Below, in pieces: positions 10,474 to 64,000 of a stretch of DNA of 64,000 nucleotides (position 1 is its first letter; the number at the start of each line of letters is the position of its first letter). The stretch is taken from assembly GCF_014201655.1 (NCBI RefSeq), contig NZ_JACHEX010000005.1, positions 62,001-126,000 on the forward strand, in the 5' to 3' direction. Below the pieces are notes generated by a model, which saw only the letters and a list, made by a program, of their open reading frames with translations, did not search any database and was not told the origin of the DNA. The translations under genes and the position numbers were made by a program. Source of the stretch: Thermosipho japonicus (lineage in GTDB: Bacteria > Thermotogota > Thermotogae > Thermotogales > Fervidobacteriaceae).

Positions 10474-10645
10474 ACGATCGGAGGCGCGTCCGAGATGAGT
10501 AAGATTCTCCATCAACGGGAGAATATTGGGAGAATCTGAAAGGCGAGGACGCCGAAGGGTGTAAGGTTTCTCCCGCCTTACATACCTGGGGGTACAGGGA
10601 ATACCTGTGCCACTGTCACGGAAATATCCGTGGAGAGCCGATCGT
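10474..10645 (+). promoter_or_regulatory. Lysine riboswitch (L box)
   Basis: The element has the lysine aptamer landmarks: GAGGCGCG after P1, an AGTAAGA loop-E-like segment, AAGGCGAGGACGCCGAAGG, a CTGGGGG segment, CCACTGTCACGG and GGAGAGCC at the 3' end. P1 is an 8-bp perfect helix pairing 10474-10481 with 10638-10645. Lysine binding in this family stops expression of lysine synthesis or import genes. Here it precedes a complete run of Dap pathway genes, which fits. Confidence 0.95.
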
Positions 10646-10672
10646 TGAGAATAATTTTATATTTTCTCAACG
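10643..10672 (+). promoter_or_regulatory. Candidate antiterminator hairpin of the lysine switch
   Basis: CGTTGAGAA (10643-10651) and TTCTCAACG (10664-10672) form a perfect 9-bp stem. Its first three bases overlap the 3' strand of riboswitch P1, so the two helices compete at their border. Its exact role in switching is inferred, and it could simply be a spacer hairpin. Confidence 0.5.
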
Positions 10673-10674
10673 AA

Positions 10675-10700
10675 CGCCTCTTCACGAGGCGAGTTTTTTT
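10675..10700 (+). terminator. Lysine-riboswitch intrinsic terminator
   Basis: CGCCTC (10675-10680) pairs with GAGGCG (10686-10691) around a TTCAC loop and is followed by seven T (10694-10700). It ends 16 nt before the asd ATG and is the expected off-state structure. Confidence 0.85.
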
Positions 10701-10716
10701 ATTAGGAGGTGTTCAA

Positions 10717-11685
10717 ATGAAAATTGGTATAGTTGGTGCAACAGGTGAAGTTGGAAGAACAATGATTAAAGTACTAGAAGACTTTAAAATTCCTGTAAAA
10801 GAATTAAAACTCTTTGCATCTAAAAGATCTTCTGGAAAAACTTTAACTTTTAATAACACTTCAATTGTCGTTGAAGAATTGACTGAAGACTCAATGAAGC
10901 AAAAATTCGACTTTTTACTGTTTTCAGCTGGTTCAACTGTTTCAAAAATCTTTGCACCAATTGCTGCAAAAGCAGGAAATATAGTAATAGATAACTCATC
11001 CGCTTTTAGAATGGAAAACGAAATTCCTTTAGTTGTTCCTGAAATTAATGGGCATTTATTAAAAAACTATAAGGGAATAATAGCTAATCCAAATTGTTCA
11101 ACAATTCAAATGGTTTTATCTCTATATAAAGTTCATGAAAAGTTCAAAATCAACGAAATATTTGTTTCAACATACCAAGCTGTTTCAGGAGCTGGTCACA
11201 AAGCAATTGCAGAATTGCAAAGACAATTAGCTGGGGATAAATCAAAAACAATTTTTCAAAAGCAAATTTCTCACAATGTTATTCCATTAATCGGTGAAAT
11301 CGAAGAAGATGGTTTTACTACAGAAGAACATAAAATGATTAATGAAACAAGAAAAATCCTTGATGATTACTCAATAAACGTCTATCCTACTACCGTAAGA
11401 GTCCCTGTATTTTATGGACATTCAGAAACTATTGTTGTTAAAACAAAAATCCCTTTTAATAATATTTCATTAATTGAAAATCAAATTAAAAATTCAAAGA
11501 ATGTTATTCTTACTAATGAAATAATAACTCCTATCGATGTAGTAGGAAGTGATTATGTATATGTTTCAAGACTTAGAAAAATTGATGAATTTACATTTTC
11601 TTTTTGGAATGTAGCAGATAACATTAGGGTAGGAGCAGCAACAAATGCGATTAGAATTTTAATGCTAATGGTGGGATTGTTATGA
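10717..11685 (+). CDS. asd: Aspartate-semialdehyde dehydrogenase
   Basis: The 322-residue enzyme reduces aspartyl phosphate to aspartate semialdehyde with NADPH. It shows the NADP loop GATGEVGRTM at the N-terminus, the catalytic NPNCSTIQM block, and the SGAGHKA segment of the family. The open frame extends back to 10630, but that stretch is the riboswitch 3' end and terminator. The ATG at 10717 follows AGGAGGTG and begins MKIGIVGATGE. It overlaps dapF by 4 nt and is the first gene of the lysine operon. Confidence 0.96.
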   Translation: MKIGIVGATGEVGRTMIKVLEDFKIPVKELKLFASKRSSGKTLTFNNTSIVVEELTEDSMKQKFDFLLFSAGSTVSKIFAPIAAKAGNIVIDNSSAFRMENEIPLVVPEINGHLLKNYKGIIANPNCSTIQMVLSLYKVHEKFKINEIFVSTYQAVSGAGHKAIAELQRQLAGDKSKTIFQKQISHNVIPLIGEIEEDGFTTEEHKMINETRKILDDYSINVYPTTVRVPVFYGHSETIVVKTKIPFNNISLIENQIKNSKNVILTNEIITPIDVVGSDYVYVSRLRKIDEFTFSFWNVADNIRVGAATNAIRILMLMVGLL

Positions 11686-33486: not shown

Positions 33487-33523
33487 AAAAATGGCTTTGG
33501 GGTTTACCCAAAGCCATTTTTTT
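33487..33523. terminator. Bidirectional intrinsic terminator between hutU and korA
   Basis: A 15-bp perfect stem (33487-33501 with 33507-33521), including AAAAA on one side and TTTTT on the other, has a 5-nt loop. Because the stem is flanked by A-run and T-run it can act on both strands, and it sits between the ends of two convergent transcripts. Confidence 0.92.
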
Positions 33524-61075: not shown

Positions 61076-62068
61076 TTAAATTCTTTCACTAGTTGAAATT
61101 TTTGTTATAAAGAAACTTCCCAACAAAAGTGGAATATAAAATGTAACAACCCGATACACCGTAATTATTCTTATGGAAACATCCGGGCCCAAAATTTGAG
61201 AAAATACTATCTGATAAGTTCCTTCAACTCCTCCGCTTGAACCTGGTGTTGGAATGTAATAAGCAACAGAATTTAAGAGCGAAATTATACCTAATAAGTA
61301 TAAGTATTCTATAGCTGAAAATTTATCAACAAAAATATAGAAAATATATGTATAAAGCAAAATTGTAACAAAGTACAGTATTATATCCAAAATTAAAATC
61401 CATGGATTTTTAACCCACAAAATTTTTATACTTTCATGTAATGAATCAATCCATTCTATTATTTTTTCTCTCTCTAGCTTTTCTCTAGAAAATTTTCCAA
61501 AAAAAGATAATATTTTTTCTAAAAATTTCTTGTTTATAAATCCAATTAAAATTAAAAGAGAAATTGAAAAACTAACTATAAAGCCCGTTAAAATTAACGA
61601 CAACCCAAAACTTTTAGGATAAGCAGATAAAATAGGTCTAATAGATAAAATATCAATAATTAAAACTACAAAAGACATCTCTAACGTTCTTGAAATTACA
61701 ATATTTGTTGCATCCTCTGTTTTTACTCCCACTTTTGAAAGATGATATATCTGGTAAGGTTGGCCGCCTATAGACATTGGAGTGATATAAGAAATGAATT
61801 TACCGAAAAATATATTTTTGAAGGTCTCTTTAAAAGGAAGGTTATATTTAAAAAATTTTAATAGCATTGAAAGTCTCAAAGTATCTATCAAATAAATTAT
61901 TACAAGTACAAATAAGCTAATTAAGAATTCTATAGTAAGTAAATCTCTTAAAAATGAAACTTGCGTTGAATAAAAAAATTGAAACAGAATAATCATCGAA
62001 AAACTAATTATCAATGAAATAAAAACCTTTCTAAAAATTGACTTTTTGCTTCTATTAGCCTCCGACAA
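61076..62068 (-). CDS. Lysylphosphatidylglycerol synthetase-type / UPF0104 flippase-like membrane protein
   Basis: The protein of about 330 residues has 7-8 hydrophobic helices, and family motifs include FGKFISYITPMSIGGQPYQIYHL and YYIPTPGSSGGVEGTYQIVF. These occur in the transmembrane part of MprF and in stand-alone lipid or glycan flippase relatives. No synthetase domain is present. The frame opens at TTG 62077, but GGGAG is better spaced for TTG 62068. It overlaps ispD by 14 nt. The lipid moved is unknown. Confidence 0.78.
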   Translation of the reverse strand: MSEANRSKKSIFRKVFISLIISFSMIILFQFFYSTQVSFLRDLLTIEFLISLFVLVIIYLIDTLRLSMLLKFFKYNLPFKETFKNIFFGKFISYITPMSIGGQPYQIYHLSKVGVKTEDATNIVISRTLEMSFVVLIIDILSIRPILSAYPKSFGLSLILTGFIVSFSISLLILIGFINKKFLEKILSFFGKFSREKLEREKIIEWIDSLHESIKILWVKNPWILILDIILYFVTILLYTYIFYIFVDKFSAIEYLYLLGIISLLNSVAYYIPTPGSSGGVEGTYQIVFSQILGPDVSIRIITVYRVVTFYIPLLLGSFFITKISTSERI

Positions 62069-62735
62069 TTTTATCAACTCCCATTAGATGCAAATCTTCT
62101 ACTGTAGTTATTTTTATATTCTTTTTATTACCTTCTGTTATAGAAACTTTATAACCTGAAGCAAGTACAACTGAACCATCATCAGTAAAATTATCCAATC
62201 TATTTGAAAATTTTGAAAATGAATCTTTTAAAACTCCATATTTAAATGTTTGCGGTGTTTGGATTATAAATATACTCTCTCTCTTTGGAACAGATAAAAT
62301 AAAATCACTTTCAACTACCGCTATAGTATTTTCGGAAGGAATTGCTGTAACTGTTGCTCCAAACTTTTTTGCATTTTCAATGTTTTTTTCAATTATATCT
62401 TTATTTACAAATGGCCTTGCCCCATCATGAATCAAAACAATATCATTTAAATCAATCTTATTTTCTAAAAATTTTATAGCATTAAAAGTAGAATATTCTC
62501 TAGTTTTTCCACCTTCAATAATGTATATTTTTTTTTCAAAGTTTTTTAAAACTTCTACGCTTTTATTGATATAATCCCTATTTGACACTACTACTAAAAA
62601 ATCAAAGCAATCTAATAAAAACTTTTCAACTGTATGTTCCATCAATGTCCTACCATTGAACTTCAAAAATTGTTTTGGAAAAGCTTTAGAAAATCTTGTT
62701 CCTTTTCCACCAAATAGAATTACACCAACTATCAC
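62055..62735 (-). CDS. ispD: 2-C-methyl-D-erythritol 4-phosphate cytidylyltransferase
   Basis: The 226-residue enzyme catalyses the third step of the MEP isoprenoid pathway. It has the nucleotide motif LFGGKGTRFSKAFPKQFLKFNG, HDGARPFV, QTPQTFKYG and a late TDDGSVVLASGY segment. The frame opens at GTG 62744, but the RBS AGGTG covers that codon, and GTG 62735 has 6-nt spacing. It follows the degenerate regulator closely and overlaps the flippase-like gene. Confidence 0.93.
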   Translation of the reverse strand: MIVGVILFGGKGTRFSKAFPKQFLKFNGRTLMEHTVEKFLLDCFDFLVVVSNRDYINKSVEVLKNFEKKIYIIEGGKTREYSTFNAIKFLENKIDLNDIVLIHDGARPFVNKDIIEKNIENAKKFGATVTAIPSENTIAVVESDFILSVPKRESIFIIQTPQTFKYGVLKDSFSKFSNRLDNFTDDGSVVLASGYKVSITEGNKKNIKITTVEDLHLMGVDKIVGG

Positions 62736-62740
62736 ATTTA

Positions 62741-63607
62741 TCACCTTTTTTTAGAGTTTTCAATACCATAAAGTTTTATCTTGTGAGAAAGGGTTTTATA
62801 ATTTATTTTAAGCATTTTAGCCGCTTTAAATCTAGAATCAGATTTTTTTAATGCAAGCATTATATATCTCTTTTCAACGTGCTTTACAAGCTTACTAGTA
62901 AAATTTACAAGATCTATACCTTCAAAATTACTGGTTTTAAATTTAGGTATATCAATTCTTCCAGTTGCTGCATAATTACTAGCAACCTTAACCAATTCTT
63001 TTGTATTACCAGGCCAGTTATACTCTTTTAACAGTTCATATTCATTGTTATCTGGTATCTTTTTATCCAAGTTCTTATGTTTTAGGTACAAAGACGAAAG
63101 AACAATATCAAAGATATATGGAATATCTTCTTTTCTATCCCTTAAGGGGGGAATTTTAACACCTTTTTTCTTAGAAAATTTTACTTTTGTATGAGGTAAT
63201 CTACTTCCAAAAAATGTTCTGTATTCATTTACATACATTCCATCTTCATATAATAACACTAATTCATTCTTTTCTTTAAAATCTAATATAACTTTTTGCA
63301 AAAATTCTCTTATTATAGGCCCTTGGAGTTCTGGGAAAGAGTACAACATATCATACTCTTCTTTTAGCCTTCTATATTCTTCCTTTATTTCAAAAAACTT
63401 AACAGCTAGCTCCAATTCCCTTAAGGAATATACCAAAATTTTTCCCGGAACAGTTTTTTCTTCCGTTAAATAAACTATATCCCAGTAATCTTCTCTAATT
63501 TTTTCTTCTAAATTTGAATTATAAATGTCAAAAACAACTTCTCTATGTTCATATAAAAATTCCCTCAGGTTCTCCAAAAGAACCTGAGGGATTAAAAGCT
63601 TAATCAA
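62741..63607 (-). CDS. Degenerate NtrC-like regulator without a working ATPase site
   Basis: The 288-residue protein keeps the tail of an NtrC-type AAA+ activator: PPLRDRKEDIPYI (153-165), NWPGNTKEL (197-205) and a C-terminal Fis-type helix-turn-helix (about 246-284, with RFKAAKMLKINYKTLSHKIKLYG). The Walker A and GAFTGA motifs are absent, and the N-terminal 150 residues look like eroded remnants. It should bind DNA but not activate sigma-54, so it may act at sigma-70 promoters or as a repressor. The start is TTG 63607 behind GGGGTGAG. The leader can form competing hairpins. Confidence 0.72.
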   Translation of the reverse strand: MIKLLIPQVLLENLREFLYEHREVVFDIYNSNLEEKIREDYWDIVYLTEEKTVPGKILVYSLRELELAVKFFEIKEEYRRLKEEYDMLYSFPELQGPIIREFLQKVILDFKEKNELVLLYEDGMYVNEYRTFFGSRLPHTKVKFSKKKGVKIPPLRDRKEDIPYIFDIVLSSLYLKHKNLDKKIPDNNEYELLKEYNWPGNTKELVKVASNYAATGRIDIPKFKTSNFEGIDLVNFTSKLVKHVEKRYIMLALKKSDSRFKAAKMLKINYKTLSHKIKLYGIENSKKR

Positions 63608-63650
63608 AGACTCACCCCTTATTGTATATTATTATGATTCCCTCAGGTTT
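63561..63650 (-). promoter_or_regulatory. Candidate RNA switch in the regulator gene leader
   Basis: On the minus-strand transcript, segment A (63649-63639, AACCTGAGGGA) lies before the RBS, segment B (63591-63579) just after the start codon, and segment C (63573-63561) further inside. B pairs with C over 13 bp around a 5-nt loop. A pairs with B over 11 bp and would enclose the RBS and TTG start in the loop. Only one of the two pairings can form at a time. Confidence 0.6.
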
Positions 63651-63668
63651 CCCCCACCTTTCTATTGT

Positions 63669-63677
63669 ATTTTAACA
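63669..63677 (-). promoter_or_regulatory. Extended -10 promoter of the degenerate regulator gene
   Basis: On the minus strand TG (63677-63676), T and TAAAAT (63674-63669) form an extended -10 element, without a good -35. The predicted start near 63662 would include segment A of the leader. A TACAAT overlaps and could be an alternative -10. Confidence 0.45.
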
Positions 63678-63707
63678 TATTCCAAATAAATATTAAATAC
63701 CATAAAA

Positions 63708-64000
63708 TTACTTGCTAATTGCTGCAGCAATAGCTATTGAATTTCTTTTTGATTCGCTTGTATCGGCTCTTGAAACGATAATTATAGGAACTTTTGCTCC
63801 CATAATTATTCCAGCAATCTTACCATTTGCAAGGTACACTGCAGACTTTCCAAGGAAGTTTCCGCTATGAATATCTGGAACAACTAAGATATCTGCTTTT
63901 CCAGCAACCGGACCTGTAACCTTCTTTACTTTCGCAGCAAACTCACTCAATGCGTTATCTAAACCAAGCGGTCCATCAATTTTACATCCTTTTATCTGTC
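63708..64000 (-). CDS. ptb: Phosphate butyryltransferase (C-terminal part)
   Basis: The gene enters from the right edge, so its start is missing. The visible part reads IDGPLGLDNALSEFAAK, GPVAGKADILVVPDIHSGN, IIMGAKVPIIIVSRADTSESKRNSIAIA, matching the C-terminal domain of phosphate butyryltransferases or acetyltransferases. Such enzymes convert butyryl-CoA (or a similar acyl-CoA) to an acyl phosphate that a kinase uses to make ATP. A butyrate kinase gene would be expected nearby but outside the window. Confidence 0.9.
   Translation of the reverse strand, partial: QIKGCKIDGPLGLDNALSEFAAKVKKVTGPVAGKADILVVPDIHSGNFLGKSAVYLANGKIAGIIMGAKVPIIIVSRADTSESKRNSIAIAAAISK

Follow-up and report, generated by a model that had tools for sequence, protein, structure and literature searches.

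What purpose is served by a sequence that is present twice around the start of a gene, with its complement in between? This question is raised by a regulator gene of Thermosipho japonicus, found in the 64-kb window analysed here (the window being the whole stretch of 64,000 nucleotides). On the minus strand of the window, AACCTGAGGGA is found at 63649-63639 and again at 63571-63561, and its complement lies between the two copies. The first-pass annotation of this DNA had described the repeat as the basis of either a hairpin of 13 bp formed locally or an alternative helix of 11 bp, and both are indeed present in the sequence. Its proposal was a switch of translation, possibly under the control of the encoded protein. 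We arrive at a different reading, to which we assign a probability of roughly 58%: judging from sequence and its conservation, the element may be a cis-acting RNA attenuator embedded in coding sequence, in which a terminator competes with an antiterminator.

The regulator gene and its two alternative helices

The features of the locus, in window coordinates, are the following.

62055..62744, minus strand: ispD, the next gene downstream, which attenuation would reach too
62741..63607, minus strand: regulator gene, 288 aa, a degenerate NtrC-type AAA remnant (AAA_lid_14) with a Fis-type HTH_8
63555..63559, minus strand: U5 tract, one base past the stem
63561..63573, minus strand: 3' arm of the hairpin, AGAACCTGAGGGA, regulator codons 12-16
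63579..63591, minus strand: 5' arm, TCCCTCAGGTTCT, regulator codons 6-10, the strand common to both pairings
63605..63607, minus strand: start codon of the regulator, TTG; of the 9 species, only G007 has ATG instead
63612..63620, minus strand: Shine-Dalgarno (SD) sequence of the regulator, AAGGGGTGA, which overlaps the arcC stop codon in arcC-linked species
63639..63649, minus strand: upstream copy, AACCTGAGGGA, a candidate for the antiterminator strand; it lies between genes in this window and within arcC codons 300-303 in seven further species
63708..63998, minus strand: 3' end of PTA_PTB (phosphate acetyl/butyryltransferase), the upstream neighbour in the window's species

The arms of the local hairpin are complementary at 13 of 13 positions across a gap of 5 nt, and the region spanning regulator codons 5-19 has a folding energy of -24.3 kcal/mol. 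The same 5' arm is complementary at 11 of 11 positions to the upstream copy, 47 nt apart, and this second pairing encloses the ribosome-binding site and the TTG start. Both strands of the 64-kb window contain exactly three occurrences of AACCTGAGGGA, every one of them at this element. In the neighbourhoods fetched from other genomes, exact CCTGAGGG was likewise found only at the hairpin element, barring one unrelated coding match each in G012 and G014. A chance repeat was rejected on the basis of these three occurrences in 64 kb, the presence once per genome, and the recoding test and codon constraint given below; a repeat or mobile element was also rejected, as the palindrome is single-copy per genome. 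The first-pass annotation had recognised no known riboswitch family, and this holds against the Rfam 15 covariance models, which gave nothing near gathering score.

The gene order in relatives is dnaA (divergent), amidase, ptb, arcC, regulator, ispD, flippase-like, phoU-like, pit and mutS2, where the names other than ptb and ispD were judged from the sequences. Butyrate kinase was considered as the relatives' upstream gene and rejected, the sequence being that of a carbamate kinase (arcC). Only in G000, the window's own genome, and its sister G001 is arcC gone from the locus (window 63610-63710); elsewhere, both genomes carry a more distant arcC of about 70% identity (G000:C1:731826-732761).

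No Walker-type ATPase region was recognised in the regulator. Its structure model is NtrC/NtrX-like with a Fis-like HTH, at a poor global fit (TM about 0.2-0.4) that gives no functional detail. The genomes searched from genera g1 and g4, the window's included, gave no sigma-54 DNA-binding domain, whereas G007 has one. The regulator has been kept in G000-G003, G006, G010 and G012, and because no sigma-54 DNA-binding domain was found there, it probably acts independently of sigma-54 in these genomes.

Conservation of both pairings

A full-length regulator ortholog is present in nine genomes, with the other eight 53-96% identical to that of the window; these nine species are related, and G000 and G001 count as one case. 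All nine Thermosipho-type genomes with the regulator contain the palindrome CCTCAGG-N-CCTGAGG once per genome, always at codons 6-16, and it is absent from the remaining 11 genomes of the family. Allowing 3 mismatches, no second site was found in the six hairpin genomes searched in that way. No consistent analogous hairpin was observed at the same place in related families.

In each of the 9 species, the hairpin is more stable than 500 out of 500 synonymous recodings. Synonymous identity reaches 1.8 times the expectation in regulator codons 1-18 and is mostly 0.9-1.3 elsewhere, so that the rest of the gene is near saturation. Among 92 amino-acid-invariant columns of the regulator, just five have the same rare codon throughout the species, and all five are inside the hairpin: codons 6 (ATC, 10% usage), 8 (CAG, 20%), 12 (GAG, 17%), 14 (CTG, 4%) and 15 (AGG, 19%). 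The core is fixed even at positions where a wobble pair would do (C6.3, C13.3 and C14.1).

The N-terminus encoded by the hairpin (regulator residues 8-20) is largely invariant in Thermosipho and unrelated in families f2 and f3. The contrast between codons 8-16, largely invariant in Thermosipho, and their different counterparts in relatives suggests that the RNA element has shaped the protein sequence of the regulator.

The upstream copy is also constrained. It lies within a translated frame in seven species (arcC codons 300-303) and is intergenic in G000 and G001. In the seven, it reads YTGAGGGG in arcC codons 301-303, Leu301-Arg302 included. Over 213 comparable columns of arcC only two are fixed on one rare codon, namely Arg302 AGG, which belongs to the upstream copy, and Lys311 AAG, which is part of the regulator SD. 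Leu301 is the sole column that is always YTG among 19 invariant Leu columns. YTG AGG was found in no unlinked arcC gene where the motif could be read; such genes have CTA AGA, TTG AGA, CTC AGA and similar. Synonymous recoding of the upstream pairing gave p = 0.0015 to 0.05 per species. For Ala300, Leu301 and Arg302 jointly, the independent-codon probability is 2e-12 over the seven species, and 1e-5 with only three lineages taken as independent.

The nine core pairs of the upstream pairing keep a standard pair through all changes except in one cell (G001), and the copy itself varies as C/T opposite G, within standard and wobble pairing. In G000 and G001, without arcC at the locus, the upstream copy was retained and lengthened to AACCTGAGGG. 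Their 5' arm matches the changed copy (GGUU, against GGCU elsewhere), and this change also abolishes the C-A mismatch of the hairpin. The spacing of the upstream copy is 55 and 56 in these two sisters and 59 in the others.

Neither helix showed a double-sided compensatory change among the nine species, all changes being one-sided. We consider this weak negative evidence, because the shared 5' arm would demand three coordinated changes, and two-sided changes are a supporting rather than a defining property of an attenuator. The mutual exclusion of the two pairings, as first proposed, is borne out by these data: both are kept at the nucleotide level in nine species. Loss of conservation, named beforehand as an outcome that would speak against the proposed switch, was not observed.

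A putative terminator inside the regulator gene

The U5 tract directly behind the hairpin, a feature missing from the first description of the locus, follows one purine after the stem in 9 of 9 species and is found on the sense strand only; no T-run of five was observed behind the palindrome on the opposite strand in the 9 species. No terminator-like site of the 64-kb window is more stable than the hairpin, at -23.5 kcal/mol; the runner-up, an intergenic one, has -17.7. According to a study in E. coli, terminators are efficient when located in the first 100 bp of a coding region, the reason being that the ribosome has yet to catch up (PMC4824070). Because of the U5 on the sense strand, the rank of the site in the window and this precedent, the best reading of the hairpin appears to be that of a terminator, with the upstream copy as antiterminator. 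The U-tract has just 5 U, and TTT is the default codon for F17 anyway.

The element would then work as follows. While the polymerase passes from the upstream gene into that of the regulator, two partners would be available to the 5' arm (codons 6-10). Pairing with the upstream copy would constitute the antiterminator, while pairing with the 3' arm (codons 12-16) would form a hairpin of 9 to 13 bp with U5 behind it, some 53 nt into the regulator gene, and would stop transcription of the regulator, of ispD and of the genes behind. Occupancy of the upstream copy by anything would favour the terminator, and in the seven arcC-linked species the likeliest occupant would be the ribosome finishing arcC. 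A ribosome that had started on the regulator and covered the 5' arm would instead lead to read-through. We infer termination itself from the hairpin and its U-tract, and the direction of control, the signal and the extent of read-through are likewise putative. The next gene, ispD, is probably essential, so termination would have to be incomplete or another promoter would have to supply ispD transcripts.

When the 3' arm is omitted, the upstream copy is predicted to be 83-100% paired in all 9 species; when it is included, at 37 C, six of the seven arcC-linked species are predicted to be bistable, G007 being the exception. At 65-75 C, the balance is predicted to lie with the terminator in all species, being nearly even in G002, and the hairpin always dominates in G000, G001 and G007. 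Given this dominance, switching would be kinetic, or would need masking or stabilisation by the ribosome or another factor.

A more specific version of the attenuator reading is tentative, and we regard it as possible rather than probable. It would be a leaderless, operon-internal attenuator whose three competing strands belong to, or descend from, protein-coding stretches of two neighbouring genes; whether transcription reads through into the regulator and ispD would depend on translation of the last part of arcC, and the last bases of arcC would have been kept as a stand-alone leader after the loss of the gene in one lineage. We found no reports of the Thermosipho element in the literature.

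Intragenic operators such as lac O2 and gal OI, which act by blocking or looping, share with the Thermosipho element a conserved palindrome just inside a coding region. Here too, the palindrome might be a DNA operator that binds a transcription factor, possibly the Fis-type HTH protein which the gene itself encodes, and that blocks the polymerase or loops the DNA with the upstream half-site. We consider this unlikely. Such a role would fit the strict conservation of the extended palindrome even where G-U wobble would preserve the RNA helix, the half-site cores are about two helical turns apart, and the regulator protein keeps HTH_8. However, the palindrome is not conserved together with the DNA-recognition helix: this helix (NYKTL.YKIK.YG) is nearly identical in families f2 and f3, whereas the palindrome is absent from the searched f2 genomes, has a single different-spacer case among the f3 genomes, and is not replaced by an inverted pair near the f2 and f3 regulator genes. 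The near identity of the helix in families whose genomes are without the palindrome also argues against the autoregulation suggested in the first-pass annotation. Moreover, no second site exists in the genomes searched, and the spacing of the upstream copy shifts by 1-4 bp among species. Changes in that copy are just C-to-T opposite G, which is the wobble pattern of RNA, and the element differs from lac O2 and gal OI in this wobble-tolerant third copy, in a U-tract that is one-stranded, and in not being conserved along with the HTH in related families.

An improbable alternative is that of a constitutive element, be it a partial terminator, a 3'-end stabiliser or an RNase III site, which would set the ratio of ptb/arcC to regulator/ispD without any switching. 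A strong hairpin with a U-tract directly behind the upstream gene would suit this role, and E. coli is known to have ORF-internal 3' ends that arise through termination or through processing (PMC7815308), but it would account neither for the constraint on arcC codons 301-302 in favour of pairing nor for the retention of the copy in the absence of arcC.

The translation switch originally favoured, in which the upstream copy and the 5' arm would enclose the ribosome-binding site and TTG and block initiation while the local hairpin would free both, we consider quite improbable as the primary output: every species does have the SD and start flanked by the two strands, the start is a weak TTG in 8 of 9 and both pairings are conserved, but the terminator-like U-tract would be unneeded and yet is invariant, the SD is placed in a large loop and not in a helix, and its predicted pairing shows no consistent difference between the two states, which makes a purely translational switch less likely. 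Attenuation and control of translation could operate together.

Comparison with known attenuators and other hairpins

The putative attenuator has in common with those of the pyrBI and trp type (surveyed in PMC2965389) two exclusive pairings over a shared strand, of which one is a hairpin backed by a U-tract, and an upstream strand open to occupancy by a ribosome. In contrast to them, the terminator lies inside the ORF (+17 to +53) and not in a leader, and the competing strand is in the coding sequence of the upstream gene. No leader peptide, aptamer or T-box was found at the Thermosipho element. An intrinsic-terminator-like element soon after the start codon, within the first 100 bp of the coding region, is also found in a synthetic tR2 construct (PMC4824070); the Thermosipho element differs in being natural, conserved and provided with a competing pairing. 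The ORF-internal sites of premature termination of E. coli also comprise 3' ends inside ORFs, some of them by intrinsic termination (PMC7815308), whereas the present case belongs to another phylum, is deduced from sequence alone and has a conserved alternative pairing.

Searches for attenuators normally target 5' leaders, and the Thermosipho element can be recognised solely by rare codons that have stayed frozen among the species. Thermotogales have scant intergenic room for regulators (T. maritima, PMC3636130), and a search based on codon constraint could reveal more such elements in compact genomes.

Some other hairpins were observed. A more distant genome has a perfect short palindrome, CCTCAGGAATCTTCCTGAGG, with a different spacer (G021:C85:7492-7511, L103). 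At 33491-33516, the window has a strong bidirectional intergenic terminator, TGGCTTTGGG...CCCAAAGCCA, where each strand carries T-runs. Another hairpin of terminator-like form, weaker and intragenic, is found at 10693 on the plus strand (CGCCTCTTCACGAGGCG then AGTTTTTTT); it lies about 60 bases into ORF 10630-11685 and is possibly a similar case.
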